A DNA stretch of 64,000 bases. Source: Gemmatimonadales bacterium. GTDB lineage: Bacteria > Gemmatimonadota > Gemmatimonadetes > Gemmatimonadales > GWC2-71-9. Each line of letters opens with the position of its first letter. Position 1 is the first letter of the stretch. The translations under genes were made by a program, and so were the position numbers. Below are positions 58,597-63,626 of this stretch, piece by piece. The stretch is taken from contig DASYCE010000015.1 in assembly GCA_036500345.1 (NCBI GenBank), positions 124,001 to 188,000 of the forward strand, given 5' to 3'. Under the pieces are notes generated by a model. That model saw only the letters and a list, made by a program, of their open reading frames with translations. It had not been told where the DNA came from and did no database searches.

Positions 58597-58670
58597 CGGG
58601 GTGTGGCGCAGTCCGGTAGCGCGTCCGCTTTGGGAGCGGAAGGTCCCGGGTTCAAATCCCGGCGCCCCGA
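58597..58670 (+). tRNA. tRNA-Pro (anticodon TGG)
   Basis: All stems close: acceptor CGGGGTG/CGCCCCG (one G-T wobble), D-stem GCGC/GCGC, anticodon stem TCCGC/GCGGA with loop TTTGGGA (anticodon TGG at 58631-58633), T-arm CCGGG-TTCAAAT-CCCGG and discriminator A. CCA is not encoded. A weak -10-like TAACTT lies at 58574-58579. The 3' part from 58626 is copied at 62706, so the gene is the attachment site of the adjoining element; the tRNA itself is intact. Confidence 0.97.
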
Positions 58671-58674
58671 TCAG
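58626..58674 (+). repeat. attL: 49-bp direct repeat in the tRNA-Pro 3' part
   Basis: Identical to 62706-62754 over 49 bases, from the anticodon stem to four bases past the tRNA end. The flanking bases differ (C/T before and G/C after). Confidence 0.9.
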
Positions 58675-58728: not shown

Positions 58729-58755
58729 GTAGTCACAAGGTCGTAGTCACAGACA
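58729..58755 (+). repeat. Tandem GTAGTCACA repeats, left element end
   Basis: GTAGTCACA at 58729-58737 and GTAGTCACAGACA at 58743-58755, 14 bp apart. The same pair occurs in the same orientation near the right end. Confidence 0.8.
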
Positions 58756-58766
58756 TTGGAGGACAA

Positions 58767-58970
58767 ATGGCAGAGGTCATCGGCGACTCGGGCTGGGCGG
58801 CCGAACAGCGTCGCCGGCGCCTGGCCGAACGCCCAGAGCACGAGCGACTCGAAGCGCTCAACAACGTCAATCCGGCCGCAGTCTGTGCGATCGAGGGGCA
58901 CGAGTGGATCAGCCCGACCGAGTCGTCGGAGCCATTCTGCAAGCATTGCGGTGCGCCGCGGCCGGCTTAG
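58767..58970 (+). CDS. Small zinc-ribbon-like protein
   Basis: A 67-aa protein with a charged N-terminal helix (AAEQRRRRLAERPEH) and a C-terminal C-x4-H-x12-C-x2-C pattern (Cys40, His45, Cys58, Cys61). It could bind zinc. GGAGGA is the SD at 58758-58763. First gene of the element's plus-strand unit; no family recognised. Confidence 0.6.
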   Translation: MAEVIGDSGWAAEQRRRRLAERPEHERLEALNNVNPAAVCAIEGHEWISPTESSEPFCKHCGAPRPA

Positions 58971-58974
58971 GTCG

Positions 58975-59640
58975 ATGAGAGCAAGCTGGGAGAGGTTTGG
59001 CCCAGCCACGCTGATTAGCGTGGCGATCGTGGCCGCCGGCGCCCTTGCGGCGGGAGCCATCCTCGTCGTGGGCATTCTCACAAGACCGGAGTCATGGGCG
59101 CCGCTGGCGGAAGCGGCAGCAACGGTGCTGCTCGCCGGATTCGCCGGCGTCCAGTTGTGGCTAGATCACGTAAGAAAGAACGAGGAGCGGCTCGCAGCGG
59201 GGGTAGAGGCGCGCGCGATCGCTGTGCTCCTCCGACGCCAAATGTTCAGCTGGTCCGCACCTGGAATCGCGGGGCAGCATCTACGCGAATGGACCGGCCG
59301 TGCCACGCGACGCGGGATGCTCGGTCAGCATATGGATCGCGCCGAGGCCCGAATGACGAAACTCGCTGTGCTTGCCGGCAGTCTTGGAAGTAACCAGCGG
59401 ATGGCCATTGATGCGTTGTTCCAGTCGTTCCTCTCCGCGACCGCGACAATCGTTGAGGAAGGCGACGCATTTTCGGCGATCATGGAAATGCGAGCCGACC
59501 CTGGCGGCTCAGACGAATTATGGAGGGACGTTGCATGGGACATCCGGCAGTGTATCGGGGTACTGAACAACGCGATTATTGAGCCGAAGCCAGCGACCGC
59601 CGCAGATGTTCACAAGGGACGGGAAATGGGGCGCCAATGA
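58975..59640 (+). CDS. Two-TM element protein A, related to protein B
   Basis: A 221-aa protein with two TM helices (about residues 10-35 and 43-62) and a long helical cytoplasmic region. It aligns with the 62586 protein without gaps: residues 43-93 versus 42-92 share 19 of 51, residues 121-162 versus 119-160 share 14 of 42, and Glu105-Trp106 coincide in both. No annotated family recognised. It starts 4 bp after the zinc-ribbon gene; the next gene overlaps its stop (ATGA). Confidence 0.7.
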   Translation: MRASWERFGPATLISVAIVAAGALAAGAILVVGILTRPESWAPLAEAAATVLLAGFAGVQLWLDHVRKNEERLAAGVEARAIAVLLRRQMFSWSAPGIAGQHLREWTGRATRRGMLGQHMDRAEARMTKLAVLAGSLGSNQRMAIDALFQSFLSATATIVEEGDAFSAIMEMRADPGGSDELWRDVAWDIRQCIGVLNNAIIEPKPATAADVHKGREMGRQ

Positions 59641-60050
59641 AGATTCGATTCACGTTGTTAGCCGACGCCGCAAACATCTCCCAAGAAGGGAAGTTGAACA
59701 TCCTCGGCGAGTTCAACGCGATCCGGGCGACCGCTTACCCGATGATGTGGGGCGGATTTGTTTATGTCGCTTCGATGGAAGTCGGTGCAGCTGAGATCGG
59801 CGCGCAAGTGGATCTCGATCTCAGGCTCGTGGACGCAGACGGCGGACTTCTTGCTCCCCCACTGCCGGTCCATCTCACGATTTCCCAAGTCGGCAACGCC
59901 CCAGAGCTTGAAGGCGAGATGGAGAATCATCCGATCATTATCTCGATCAGCCAACTCACCATCCCCCAAGCGGGGAAATACTCGTTTGATCTCTGGCGAG
60001 AGGGGTCGCAGGTCGATACGTGCGGGTTTTACGCCGTTCTCGTAAGATGA
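59637..60050 (+). CDS. Small DUF6941-like protein
   Basis: A 137-aa beta-rich protein: KIRFTLLADAANISQEGKLNI and ILGEFNAIRATAYPMMWGGF are reminiscent of DUF6941 proteins. Function unknown. Overlaps protein A by 4 bp and the HicA-like gene by 4 bp, so it is part of one plus-strand unit. Confidence 0.65.
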   Translation: MKIRFTLLADAANISQEGKLNILGEFNAIRATAYPMMWGGFVYVASMEVGAAEIGAQVDLDLRLVDADGGLLAPPLPVHLTISQVGNAPELEGEMENHPIIISISQLTIPQAGKYSFDLWREGSQVDTCGFYAVLVR

Positions 60051-60304
60051 ATCACTCGAAGGCGTTATCGACGCTGAACGAATGGCTTTCGGGAAAGGCA
60101 ACGGGTGTGCGCTATTCCGAATTGGCGTCGACGCTTAGGGCGTTGGGCTGGCAGGAATCTGGCGGCGGCGGGTCGCACCGAATATGGTGGCACGAAGACT
60201 GCCAAGCTGTGATCCAGTCAGTAGATAAGGGCACTGGCCAGCTGCTTCCAGTGTATGTTAAGCGAGCGGCGAAGGTCGCTCTTGCTCAGGGGAGAGAGAA
60301 ATGA
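60047..60304 (+). CDS. HicA-like toxin (double-stranded-RNA-binding fold)
   Basis: An 85-aa protein. The GVRYSELASTLRALGWQESG helix-strand and GSHRIWWHEDC segment, with the family's conserved Gly-Ser-His (His44), match HicA mRNA interferases. About 20 extra residues precede the usual start. The HicB-like gene follows with a 4-bp overlap, in toxin-antitoxin order. Confidence 0.72.
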   Translation: MNHSKALSTLNEWLSGKATGVRYSELASTLRALGWQESGGGGSHRIWWHEDCQAVIQSVDKGTGQLLPVYVKRAAKVALAQGREK

Positions 60305-60627
60305 CCGAAACCGGAATTGATAGGGCGATCCTCTTTGCCGCTTGGACATTCCGTGGCGGCCCCGACCTCGACGGATCGGGCGCCTATGTGATCGAGATCG
60401 ACGAGCTCCCAGGCTTTTTCGTCGCGGCAGACACTGAGGATGAAGCAATTCACGAATTGACGCCTGCATTGGCCGCGCATCTTACGACGCTCGCGAGGCT
60501 CGGCAGAGATGTTCCCCGGCCGGCCCATCCCGGGTGGTTGCCGGAGGTTCGGCGGACGCCGACCCCGTCCAATGCTCGTCTCGAGGTCACGCCGCGAATT
60601 CCGGAGCTTCGACTCCAAACCGCCTGA
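60301..60627 (+). CDS. HicB-like antitoxin
   Basis: A 108-aa protein with the HicB partial RNase H fold: GAYVIEIDELPGFFVAADTEDEAIHELTPAL and LARLGRDVPRPAHPGW. The C-terminal 30 residues (RTPTPSNARLEVTPRIPELR) are not a clear ribbon-helix-helix or HTH, so DNA binding and autoregulation are uncertain. SD GGGGAGAG is present. Confidence 0.72.
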   Translation: MTETGIDRAILFAAWTFRGGPDLDGSGAYVIEIDELPGFFVAADTEDEAIHELTPALAAHLTTLARLGRDVPRPAHPGWLPEVRRTPTPSNARLEVTPRIPELRLQTA

Positions 60628-60638
60628 CGGCGAGCCAA

Positions 60639-60854
60639 CTACTCTTTTTTGAGCGATTCGACGGCAAGCTTCACAAGCGGTGTCACATATTCATCCGAAA
60701 TCTGCTGCATGGTAATACCACCTGGCCGCGCCGGCGCGTGAAGATCGATCTTGATTGTCTGCGATCCATCTGCATACAGTTCGACCGTAATTTCGACCTC
60801 CGTTCCGTCCGGTGCGCTGACGCGTCGCTTGGCACGTCGAACTGGGTCGCTCAT
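60639..60854 (-). CDS. Small 71-aa element protein of unknown function
   Basis: A 71-aa protein with SAPDGTEVEITVELYADGSQTIKI and QISDEYVTPLVKLAVESLKKE, a beta hairpin followed by a helix. No family recognised. It converges on the HicB-like gene with an 11-bp gap. ATG 60854 is chosen; a frame start at 60881 would add nine residues. Confidence 0.5.
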   Translation of the reverse strand: MSDPVRRAKRRVSAPDGTEVEITVELYADGSQTIKIDLHAPARPGGITMQQISDEYVTPLVKLAVESLKKE

Positions 60855-61006
60855 ACTGATCACCGGTCCTCTCAGCACCATAGATGCAAGTAAGATCGCT
60901 CAATGTAGCTCGCGCGACCAAACGAATCGCAGTCAGCGCGAGACTAACCGCGTCGAGAGTTATCGGCGTGTTCGGGACGGTTCGCGACGTTCCGCAGGCA
61001 GCGCTC

Positions 61007-61891
61007 CTATTTCGTCAGGTCGACCTTGATTCGATTGCCCTTGAACATGACGATCGAACCGTCCACAACATCCTGGGCAGTGATGTCCGCTCGCGAGAAC
61101 TTCGCGGCCAAATCCGCCGGGACATAAATCGTCAGGCGGTCCTCTGCCGTTGAGTTGAGCCATGAATACCGCCCGGCCATGTCCTTGTGCTTGACGACGA
61201 TCACGACTGCGAACCCGGCACCCGGAATGGAATCGGTGACCGCCGCGCCAAGTTTCTTGATGAGGGGGAAAGCAACTTCATTGATAGTTCCGGCGTTGCG
61301 CTCTGCTTCATTGGTCTGGTTGTTGTTGTAGGTGTATTTCGGTTCTGGCGCCATCACCCACAGGTAGCGCGTTCCGCGCCATGATTCGACAAGTGTGTCC
61401 CACGGCGAGCGGGCAATACCAACGGCAATGAGCGCGTGGCCGTGCTTTACGCCGCTTGGCGAATGATCCCCGGAGAGCCACGCTGCAGCGGAATCCAGGT
61501 CGCGGTCAGATGCGAGTTGAGCGTTTTCTCCCGCGTCGAAAAGGCGGTGGAATGCGCGCGCGGTATCCAAGACATTTACATCGATGAGGACGTCACTCAC
61601 TTCACCGCCTCCGCCAAGATGCACAATAACCCGCCCGGTCGACTTGTCGGTGCTGACGTCCTTGACTGAAAACGGCACGGGAATGAGCGGACTGCGCGTG
61701 TGCCGGGAAGAGGAATCGTCGACAGTGAGCGAGTCTCCGCGGAAACTTACCGAGCCGTGGTATTTCGAGTCCTTGAATCGAAGCGCCGAGAGCGGAACGA
61801 GGAGCGCTACATGCTGGCCCTTAGCAACGTGCGCGGACTGCGCTGACAGCGGCGCCGCGAGAAACAGCGCACCAGCAAGGAATAGCTTCAC
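61007..61891 (-). CDS. Secreted element protein of unknown function
   Basis: A 294-aa exported protein: signal peptide (KLFLAGALFLAAPLSAQ), then a mixed domain with SLTVDDSSSRHTRSPLIPV, a Gly-rich turn (VHLGGGGEVSDVLIDV), SWRGTRYLWVMAPEPKYTY and a final VDGSIVMFKGNRIKVDL. GTG 61891 has GGAGG seven bases upstream and overlaps the stop of protein B (GTGA). No family recognised; because it is exported while the others are cytoplasmic or membrane-bound, it may work in the periplasm. Confidence 0.6.
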   Translation of the reverse strand: MKLFLAGALFLAAPLSAQSAHVAKGQHVALLVPLSALRFKDSKYHGSVSFRGDSLTVDDSSSRHTRSPLIPVPFSVKDVSTDKSTGRVIVHLGGGGEVSDVLIDVNVLDTARAFHRLFDAGENAQLASDRDLDSAAAWLSGDHSPSGVKHGHALIAVGIARSPWDTLVESWRGTRYLWVMAPEPKYTYNNNQTNEAERNAGTINEVAFPLIKKLGAAVTDSIPGAGFAVVIVVKHKDMAGRYSWLNSTAEDRLTIYVPADLAAKFSRADITAQDVVDGSIVMFKGNRIKVDLTK

Positions 61892-62586
61892 TTCGATCCT
61901 CCAATGATGGGCCACGCGATCGGGATCCGAGTCGCACCAGTCATGAAAGCATCGACCCCGGCGGTAACGCGGTCCGCGGCCGCCATCTCGTCGGTCGCGA
62001 GGGCCACCTCGATAAGCTCACGATCTAAGAGCGAGATCAATTCGCTGAACGAATAGAACGTCTCGGCGATCGATCGAATCCCGTCGACGTGAGCGCGCTT
62101 CTCGATCTCCTGATTGACGAAGCCGGTGGCGCGAAGAAATAGGACCGTAGCTTGTCGCGCGGCCTCCCGACGTGGGCCGTGCAGGGATGTGGTCAAAGCA
62201 GAGATCTCATCCACCCGCTTCTCTGCCACGTCGACGGCGATGCCATACCGCTCGTGGTTTTCCAAGGCCCATTCAAGAATGTCGGTGACCGGCGCCTTTC
62301 GTTGCCGATGCCACGAGCGGATTTCGCGCGCGAGATTGTATGCGAGGAAACTGACGCGCTGTTCGGCCGCCTCTCGCTTGTCCGCCTTGCGTTGTTCCTC
62401 ATTCCTCCAGGTCAACCACGCGAAGATCGCAATTGCGACAGTCGCCGCGGATTCGGCAACGGCCTGGGCGGGCTGGGGCCAGCGGCCAATCGCAAACCCC
62501 AAGACAGCAGCACCGAAGATGAGGATCGGATTGATTCCCACTGTAGCGGTCTGGCCGGTAGATGCTCGTGGGTCAGCGACAGTCAT
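61888..62586 (-). CDS. Two-TM element protein B, related to protein A
   Basis: A 232-aa protein with two TM helices (about residues 18-35 and 42-60) and a helical region. See protein A (58975) for the shared segments; the two are distant paralogues on opposite strands. ATG 62586 has a GAGG just upstream; a GTG at 62592 is in frame. The last bases overlap the secreted protein gene, so it heads a minus-strand unit. Confidence 0.7.
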   Translation of the reverse strand: MTVADPRASTGQTATVGINPILIFGAAVLGFAIGRWPQPAQAVAESAATVAIAIFAWLTWRNEEQRKADKREAAEQRVSFLAYNLAREIRSWHRQRKAPVTDILEWALENHERYGIAVDVAEKRVDEISALTTSLHGPRREAARQATVLFLRATGFVNQEIEKRAHVDGIRSIAETFYSFSELISLLDRELIEVALATDEMAAADRVTAGVDAFMTGATRIPIAWPIIGGSK

Positions 62587-62603
62587 GTGCACCTCGATGC
62601 GGA

Positions 62604-62628
62604 GTAGTCACAGAAGTAGTCACAGACA
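62604..62628 (+). repeat. Tandem GTAGTCACA repeats, right element end
   Basis: GTAGTCACA at 62604-62612 and GTAGTCACAGACA at 62616-62628, 12 bp apart. Same orientation as the left pair; between this pair and attR (62706) there is no gene. Confidence 0.8.
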
Positions 62629-62705: not shown

Positions 62706-62754
62706 CGCTTTGGGAGCGGAAGGTCCCGGGTTCAAATCCCGGCGCCCCGATCAG
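62706..62754 (+). repeat. attR: 49-bp copy of the tRNA-Pro 3' part
   Basis: Exact copy of 58626-58674. It lacks the tRNA 5' half (acceptor, D-arm), so it is not a second tRNA gene. Confidence 0.9.
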
Positions 62755-62822: not shown

Positions 62823-63626
62823 TCACCGCCCACCTCGCCCGCCCGGCACCGGCACTCCCATATTCGACGTCCCACCGAACAGATCCTTCAGCGGTCCCAC
62901 CCACCTCGGCAGCCGGTACGGCATCGGATCGAACAAACCCGGTTCGACCGGCAGGTCGAGTTTCGGCTCGCTGAAATCCTCCGCGATCGACAACTGGTTC
63001 CCCAGGTACACCCGCACGCTTCGCGGCAGCCAGCCGCTGCCGGCGCGCTTGTAACCGCTGATCCGCGCATCGAGCGGACGCCGCGGGTCCATGTTCTTCT
63101 CGATCATCCGCACCATCACGAGACGATCGCGGTCGAGCCAGAACTGATTCGAGATGGTGTCGCCGGCAAGCGCGCCCACCACGATCACTGGCGCGCCTTC
63201 CCACTTGTCGTGGTGCACCTTGGTCAGGTCGAAGCCGTATCGTCGCAGCATGGCAATCGTCTGCGCCGGCGGCGCAGTCTGCAGATCATTCAGCAGCAGG
63301 ATATAGGGAAGGACCCCTTTCGCCGCCGACCGGAGCCGACCACCACCGATTTCGTAGGTAGTGTCGTTCTGGTAGATGACGGCCCGCCCGGTCGCCGACG
63401 GCGCCACGTCGATCCGCATGTGGTCGGGCGGTTGCACGGCGACATACCAGGTCTCGACGCGTTGATCCGCGGGGAGGACCGTGCGCTGGACATAAAACGC
63501 CGAGTGAAACCACTTTCCGCGATACTTGTCGAACGCCTGGTGAACCACCGCTTCTCCCGGCGGACCGACCCGCGAGCCACCGTGAAGCAGCGAGACCATG
63601 GCAAGCAGCGCAGCACCAACGAGCAT
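62823..63626 (-). CDS. LolA-like outer-membrane lipoprotein-sorting protein
   Basis: A 267-aa exported protein with a LolA/LolB-type half-barrel: signal peptide, FDKYRGKWFHSAFYVQRTV, PPDHMRIDVAPS, a Trp/Tyr-bearing strand set and a C-terminal Pro/Gly-rich tail (GVPVPGGRGGR). The family's outer-membrane role is inferred. It is divergent from mscL. Confidence 0.65.
   Translation of the reverse strand: MLVGAALLAMVSLLHGGSRVGPPGEAVVHQAFDKYRGKWFHSAFYVQRTVLPADQRVETWYVAVQPPDHMRIDVAPSATGRAVIYQNDTTYEIGGGRLRSAAKGVLPYILLLNDLQTAPPAQTIAMLRRYGFDLTKVHHDKWEGAPVIVVGALAGDTISNQFWLDRDRLVMVRMIEKNMDPRRPLDARISGYKRAGSGWLPRSVRVYLGNQLSIAEDFSEPKLDLPVEPGLFDPMPYRLPRWVGPLKDLFGGTSNMGVPVPGGRGGR

Follow-up and report, generated by a model that had tools for sequence, protein, structure and literature searches.

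Elements that have lost their genes for integration and transfer while keeping the attachment sites attL and attR have been described among relatives of the integrative and conjugative element (ICE) ICESt1 of Streptococcus thermophilus, where they are termed cis-mobilizable elements (CIMEs; PMC5704250, PMC7563491); the retrieved text of the second of these sources calls CIMEs prevalent (PMC7563491). Lambda-type integrases are described as binding both arm and core sites with one and the same protein (PMC2951348, PMC4880445), and in the account given of the mycobacteriophages CrimD, Giles and L5 the phage attachment site attP contains pairs of arm sites, whose sequence can differ even between related integrases (PMC3203893). 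The Islander procedure for islands in tRNA genes, as its authors set it out, rejects candidates devoid of an integrase open reading frame (ORF; PMC4383910); given this demand, islets without such an ORF are filtered out and their numbers are poorly known. Here we describe an islet of this kind, a 4.08-kb island at tRNA-Pro(TGG) in a stretch of 64,000 nucleotides (hereafter the window) from a Gemmatimonadales bacterium (assembly GCA_036500345.1, contig DASYCE010000015.1, positions 124,001 to 188,000). An earlier note on this DNA had drawn attention to tandem copies of the motif GTAGTCACA near both ends of the island. We propose that the island is probably CIME-like, complete in its att sites and without an integrase, and could still be moved by an integrase that matches it.

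An island between tRNA-Pro(TGG) and its displaced 3' part

A perfect 49-bp direct repeat marks the two ends of the island, its copies lying at an offset of 4,080 bp. The left copy, the attL core (58626..58674, + strand), forms the 3' part of an intact tRNA-Pro(TGG) gene (58597..58670, + strand; detected by ARAGORN and by Rfam RF00005 at 68.2 bits), the presumed integration target restored at attL, and the right copy, the attR core (62706..62754, + strand), is a tRNA-Pro fragment with 100% identity to it. A core common to the 3' end of the target gene, with short repeats flanking it on both arms, is the arrangement expected of an att site used by a lambda-type integrase. The right-flank gene (267 aa; 62823..63626, - strand) lies beyond the island, 68 nt from attR, and its homologues adjoin the tRNA gene in relatives, where only 63 nt (locus L147, genome G080) or 24 nt (L197, G054) separate them from tRNA-Pro(TGG). 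Because these relatives without the island have the homologue directly beside the tRNA gene, the interval is an insertion. Its GC fraction is 0.597, as against 0.663 in the 10 kb to its left. A 15-bp perfect inverted repeat (58796-58810 and 62357-62371) lies within the first and last genes of the island.

Four exact copies of GTAGTCACA, all on the + strand, start at 58729, 58743, 62604 and 62616. The left pair (58729..58755, + strand) begins 58 nt past the tRNA gene and has the form GTAGTCACA-N5-GTAGTCACA-GACA with a period of 14, and the right pair (62604..62628, + strand) has the form GTAGTCACA-N3-GTAGTCACA-GACA with a period of 12; the positions, periods, common strand and trailing GACA are as the earlier note had described them. 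That note had also named many copies elsewhere as what would speak against its reading, and these did not appear: the whole genome (3,319,001 bases, 32 contigs) holds five exact copies, four of them in the island and the fifth at C7:50920, while a reversed-pattern control yields eight. Pairs of copies separated by 0-20 bases number two in this genome, both in the island, and zero for the control. Matches with at most one mismatch in the window are four, against a shuffle mean of 4.44, and all four are exact and paired; the count itself is ordinary, and what is unusual about the copies is their exactness, pairing and place. When the window was tiled into 852 segments of 150 nt (362,526 segment pairs), a tandem 9-mer was common to 13 segment pairs, nine of which are neighbouring segments and four the left-right pairs of the element, making GTAGTCACA the only tandem 9-mer common to non-neighbouring segments.

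A search of the island's ORFs of at least 30 aa with an integrase profile gave no match, and Pfam and PHROGs detected no integrase, relaxase or structural phage family with confidence, and no conjugation family, in any of its eight ORFs. The island accordingly contains no integrase ORF of the sort that an Islander-type search looks for and presents two features of a CIME, with attL and attR kept (the 49-bp repeat, and arm pairs at both ends) and integrase, relaxase and conjugation genes undetected in all eight ORFs. Elsewhere in the same genome, none of the five loci surrounding integrase matches holds GTAGTCACA, and the genome was unmatched in a search of 395 genomes of the phylum (one genome per species) with the integrase of genome G040, which matched 46 of them.

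Paired repeats at tRNA-integrase loci in the phylum

As reference we took loci with the end of an integrase gene near a tRNA gene, the tRNA-Pro(CGG) island of the same genome (L005/L052) being an example. They came mainly from a tRNA-Pro search and from the search with the G040 integrase, the best 30 loci of the latter being examined, and comprise 24 tRNA-integrase intervals at 21 loci. With tandem 9-mers required to match at no fewer than eight of nine positions, a repeat of period 12 lies between tRNA and integrase at 17 of the 21 loci (L005, L011, L012, L023, L032, L206-L209, L211, L216, L220, L223 and L230-L233). In the same intervals, periods of 9, 13, 15 and 16 occur one, one, two and one times and the remaining periods from 9 to 20 not at all, with shuffles giving about 0.3 per period. 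The sequence of the repeat changes from island to island (GGTGTCCGT, TGTTGTGAG, GTGGTGCCA, CGGTAACGA and others), and the period is constant. Where the far end is readable, namely in L052, in genome G001 (L040) and in G076 (L046/L045, two contig ends taken as one island), the near end's repeat is present there as well, with its orientation unchanged. The comparison of spacing in related elements that the earlier note had suggested thus brings out a period shared by the window's right pair. The layout in the window is that of the phylum's integrase islands, with GTAGTCACA replacing their motifs. L052 (G000:C11, 1625-17610) is itself a 15.9-kb integrase island, both ends of which carry GGTGTCCGTT-type arms, those on the right occurring in both orientations.

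Among the best 30 tRNA-Pro loci, five besides that of the window have a period-12 tandem 8-mer at most 280 nt past the tRNA gene (L011, L012, L023, L031 and L032), and 20 further tRNA-Pro stretches, from genomes that are partly the same, add one (L185, the same place as L031); on inspection the majority of tRNA-Pro sites look empty. The nearest arm motifs are the GTGGTCAC pairs at tRNA-Pro(TGG) in G040 (GTGGTCACG/GTGGTCACA, period 12) and G043 (GTGGTCACA/CTGGTCACA, period 12). They have the same orientation as the pairs of the window and lie 70-71 nt past the tRNA gene (58 nt in the window). The adjoining integrase gene is directed towards the tRNA gene, and on the short contig of G043 only its last part is present. 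The second copy continues as GTCACAGACG in G043 and as GTCACAGACA in the window. The arm consensus of lambda resembles AGTCAC. A search of the family with three mismatches allowed gave matches in 34 of its 102 genomes, and by eye the control columns were no less full; from it only G040 and G043 were used, both of which the tandem-repeat scan had already identified. In L138 (G040:C81, 847-2289) the integrase frame continues through the arm pair into the tRNA gene, and therefore the arms there lie in the coding 3' end of the integrase.

In L185 (G028:C59) a perfect 12-bp tandem, TCGGCCTGATTG, directly follows tRNA-Pro (464-537), and no integrase match occurs before the contig ends 1.1 kb further; this is possibly a second integrase-less case. 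Short intervals between tRNA-Pro repeats in G041, G025, G068/G046 and G081 were considered as elements of the same kind and rejected, no clear paired arms being visible by eye at both ends; G041 contains a pair of AGTAACA and G081 one of the GGTGTCC type, at the right end only.

A further occupant of tRNA-Pro(TGG), in G087 (L242, G087:C185, 654-9555), is a satellite-like island of 8,828 bp whose ends are identical over 42 bp. It encodes an integrase and a Prim-Pol/AAA protein; AGTGCCCA is repeated at 12 bp near its far end, and no pair rises above threshold near the other. A profile built from two membrane-type proteins of the islet matches two of the 102 family genomes, its own and G087 (E 1.9e-5), and four of the 395 phylum genomes. 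The G087 match is the last gene of the G087 island, with weak pairwise scores (E 1e-3 and 1e-5), so that a protein related to the islet's membrane pair appears to travel on an integrase-bearing island with the same target. As possible parents in the sense of an ICE or an integrative and mobilizable element (IME), the nearest candidates are such integrase islands; that of G087 encodes Prim-Pol, and its seven scanned ORFs contain no conjugation family.

In the wider collections, the exact GTAGTCACA pair with 3-5 bases between copies occurs in one of the 395 phylum genomes, and with 0-20 bases in one of the 102 family genomes, in each case the islet's own. The genome_contigs collection (84,980 species by its description) contains the exact pair in 31 stretches, several of them from mutually related Nocardiopsis. 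A local profile finds an integrase ORF in eight of these (L061, L069, L071, L074, L076, L077, L078 and L082), a count that has no matched control and is an upper reading because the integrase of L074 lies 3.5 kb away and the first score in L071 was weak (3e-5). A tRNA gene is present in three of the 31 (L059, L069 and L082), and in L071 a 22-bp piece of a tRNA-Leu 3' end lies beside the pair; pair, integrase and tRNA sequence thus occur together in L069, L082 and L071. In L069 three copies spaced at 12 bp adjoin tRNA-Pro, an integrase and a helix-turn-helix (HTH) protein also being present; the copies are oriented oppositely relative to the tRNA gene. Integrases beside identical repeats were thus found in at most eight of these stretches, and nearer home neither the five integrase loci of the genome itself nor the phylum sample yielded an integrase with the exact pair. 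Eight Nocardiopsis stretches (L061, L064, L076-L079, L085 and L086) carry clusters of GCGTAGTCACAG-like repeats in 12-bp steps, with an integrase ORF near in four of the eight. Two stretches from Porticoccaceae and Pseudomonadales, L059 (1068-1240) and L071 (3097-3195), have TTTGTAGTCACA pairs in common, located beside tRNA-Leu or its 22-bp end.

Proposed mobilization and its alternatives

As a sequence-based prediction, arm-type integrase sites are a well-supported reading of the GTAGTCACA pairs, because of their position, their orientation, the 12-bp period of the right pair and the recurrence of the layout in the integrase-bearing islands of the phylum. The earlier suggestion that a tyrosine integrase binds them agrees with this layout, including the GTGGTCAC pairs that accompany an integrase at tRNA-Pro(TGG) in two relatives, and accords less well with the left period of 14. 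We propose that a lambda-type tyrosine integrase with GTAGTCACA specificity would have inserted the 4.08-kb island into the 3' part of tRNA-Pro(TGG). A cognate enzyme could be supplied by an incoming phage, satellite or island using the same tRNA gene; it would contact the GTAGTCACA pairs through its N-terminal domains and the 49-bp cores through its catalytic domains, allowing the islet to excise or re-integrate in trans, or to be mobilized in cis should such an element land beside it. In the meantime the HicAB pair may favour its retention. The earlier statement that a cognate integrase acts, or acted, on this DNA can be kept for the past, as past action follows from this reading; its present half finds no echo in an island devoid of integrase, in a genome whose five integrase loci are free of the motif, or in a phylum sample where the exact pair is seen only here. 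We infer the binding, a past integration by the lambda-type class and any present excision from the sequence and by analogy with described systems.

Several observations weigh against this proposal. The left pair departs from the 12-bp rule of the relatives, which the right pair fits, and four of the 21 reference loci (L004, L142, L210 and L212) have no 12-bp repeat at the threshold used. The phylum sample yielded no integrase whose arms are exactly GTAGTCACA, and for want of a tRNA-Pro integrase with that exact motif there we can only infer the cognate enzyme. The island was seen only once, which gives no direct sign of movement. To the uncontrolled integrase count in genome_contigs must be added that in viral_contigs the GTAGTCACA pair shows no enrichment, with six stretches against 14 for the reversed control, and that an integrase was found by profile in none of the six and in none of the 14.

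Some of these points fit the most serious of the alternatives, an inert relic, in which an autonomous island lost its integrase by deletion, the arms persist merely for want of time, and nothing moves the island now. The left period of 14 and the lack of a cognate integrase in the same genome speak for it; decayed neighbours are at hand, with an arm pair at tRNA-Pro without a nearby integrase match in G045 and short integrase pieces in G049; and CIMEs are themselves presented as decayed elements in the sources cited for them (PMC5704250, PMC7563491). However, all eight ORFs of the islet are open with no integrase fragment detected, the terminal genes start 15 and 11 nt from the arms, and the four 9-mers are identical. 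We regard a relic as unlikely on balance, though it deserves more weight than any other alternative.

A second alternative, which we think doubtful, is that the islet is a true non-autonomous element, an integrase counterpart of the miniature inverted-repeat transposable element (MITE). Such an element would never need an integrase of its own; it would consist of att sites and stability- or defence-like cargo (HicAB, DUF6941 and the paired membrane proteins) and ride on any entering tRNA-Pro integrase with GTAGTCACA specificity. Since both terminal genes start right next to an arm pair, the cargo could moreover be switched by an integrase that binds there.

The same proximity, with a pair shortly before the start of each terminal ORF (58767 and 62592), would suit operators of a regulator of these two genes with no relation to an integrase. 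Yet the pairs, which point in the same direction along the island, hence have opposite orientations with respect to the two genes, integrases elsewhere are accompanied by the same layout with other repeat sequences, and no sigma-70-like site is found at either pair, the sole site in the region being at 60829; we consider operators very improbable. Even less is to be said for mobilization by a resident integrase with other arms, that of the tRNA-Pro(CGG) island: it is encoded in the same genome beside a related tRNA-Pro, but its GGTGTCCGTT arms are unlike GTAGTCACA at both ends, and arm sites are described as being recognized by the integrase N-terminal domain (PMC3203893). Chance short repeats would account for one-mismatch matches no commoner than in shuffles but hardly for five exact copies in 3.32 Mb of which four are here, nor for the only tandem 9-mer common to distant segments, and are the least credible explanation of all. 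Over these alternatives we retain the proposal of an att-complete islet awaiting a matching integrase.

Gene content and comparison with known systems

The eight ORFs of the islet include HicAB, DUF6941 and two paralogous membrane-type proteins. On the + strand, 15 nt past the left arm pair, a 67-aa ORF (58767..58970) has a possible zinc ribbon (CKHCG) by eye, no family assignment and only weak PHROGs matches. It is followed by a 221-aa protein of membrane type by eye (58975..59640, + strand) that has a relative in the G087 tRNA-Pro island, a DUF6941 protein (59637..60050, + strand; PF22091, E=2.4e-21), and a HicA-like toxin (60047..60304, + strand; PF07927 at 27.2 bits against a cut-off of 27, phrog_353) paired with a HicB-like antitoxin (60301..60627, + strand; PF15919 at 27.7 bits against a cut-off of 27, phrog_497). 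On the - strand lie an 80-aa ORF without a family in Pfam, PHROGs or NCBIfam (60639..60881), a 302-aa ORF without a Pfam or NCBIfam family (61007..61915), which has distant relatives elsewhere in the same genome, in G076 and in G043, and a 234-aa protein of membrane type by eye (61888..62592), with its first start codon 11 nt inward from the right arm pair. BLASTP shows the 221-aa and 234-aa proteins to be paralogues (28% identity, E=1e-8); they lie near opposite ends of the island and face inward. PADLOC and NCBIfam found nothing in the eight ORFs. The DUF6941 protein is present in 69 of the 102 family genomes and is therefore no marker of the islet. The viral_contigs collection contained no relative of the 302-aa protein, the membrane pair or a 24-base piece of the left end; phages yielded no relative of the 221-aa protein and none of the island DNA, and plasmids none of the 302-aa protein. 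In L180 (G061:C19, 2938-8449) a HicB-like ORF comes after a DUF6941 gene, and beyond these lies a pair of helicase-like and OLD-nuclease-like ORFs resembling a Gabija system, a putative assignment.

The literature searched, with subscription journals mostly outside its coverage, contained no report of the islet. Arm sites of this kind could serve to flag an integrase-less islet and would at the same time tell what the missing enzyme must recognize. Furthermore, a fixed 12-bp period with varying sequence across the phylum offers natural paired data, integrase with arm sequence, for working out arm-site recognition.

Among the integrase-bearing elements at the same tRNA-Pro(TGG), those of G040 and G043 have the nearest arm motif and the G087 Prim-Pol island has a membrane protein family in common with the islet; all three, unlike it, encode an integrase. 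The mycobacteriophages CrimD, Giles and L5 resemble it in that their core, located in a tRNA or tmRNA gene (tmRNA in CrimD), is flanked on either side by a pair of short repeats, which are direct in Giles and L5; they differ in that, as described, they encode the integrase beside the site (PMC3203893). The tRNA islands of Islander are likewise marked at their ends by a tRNA gene and a displaced 3' fragment in the same orientation, according to their description (PMC4383910). The named class that serves as precedent is that of the CIMEs: the islet stands alone rather than in tandem, is without a known parent ICE or IME, and has arm pairs visible at both ends, which sets it apart from them, while it shares with CIMEs as described a fixed target, retained attL and attR, and the loss from view of genes for integration and transfer.

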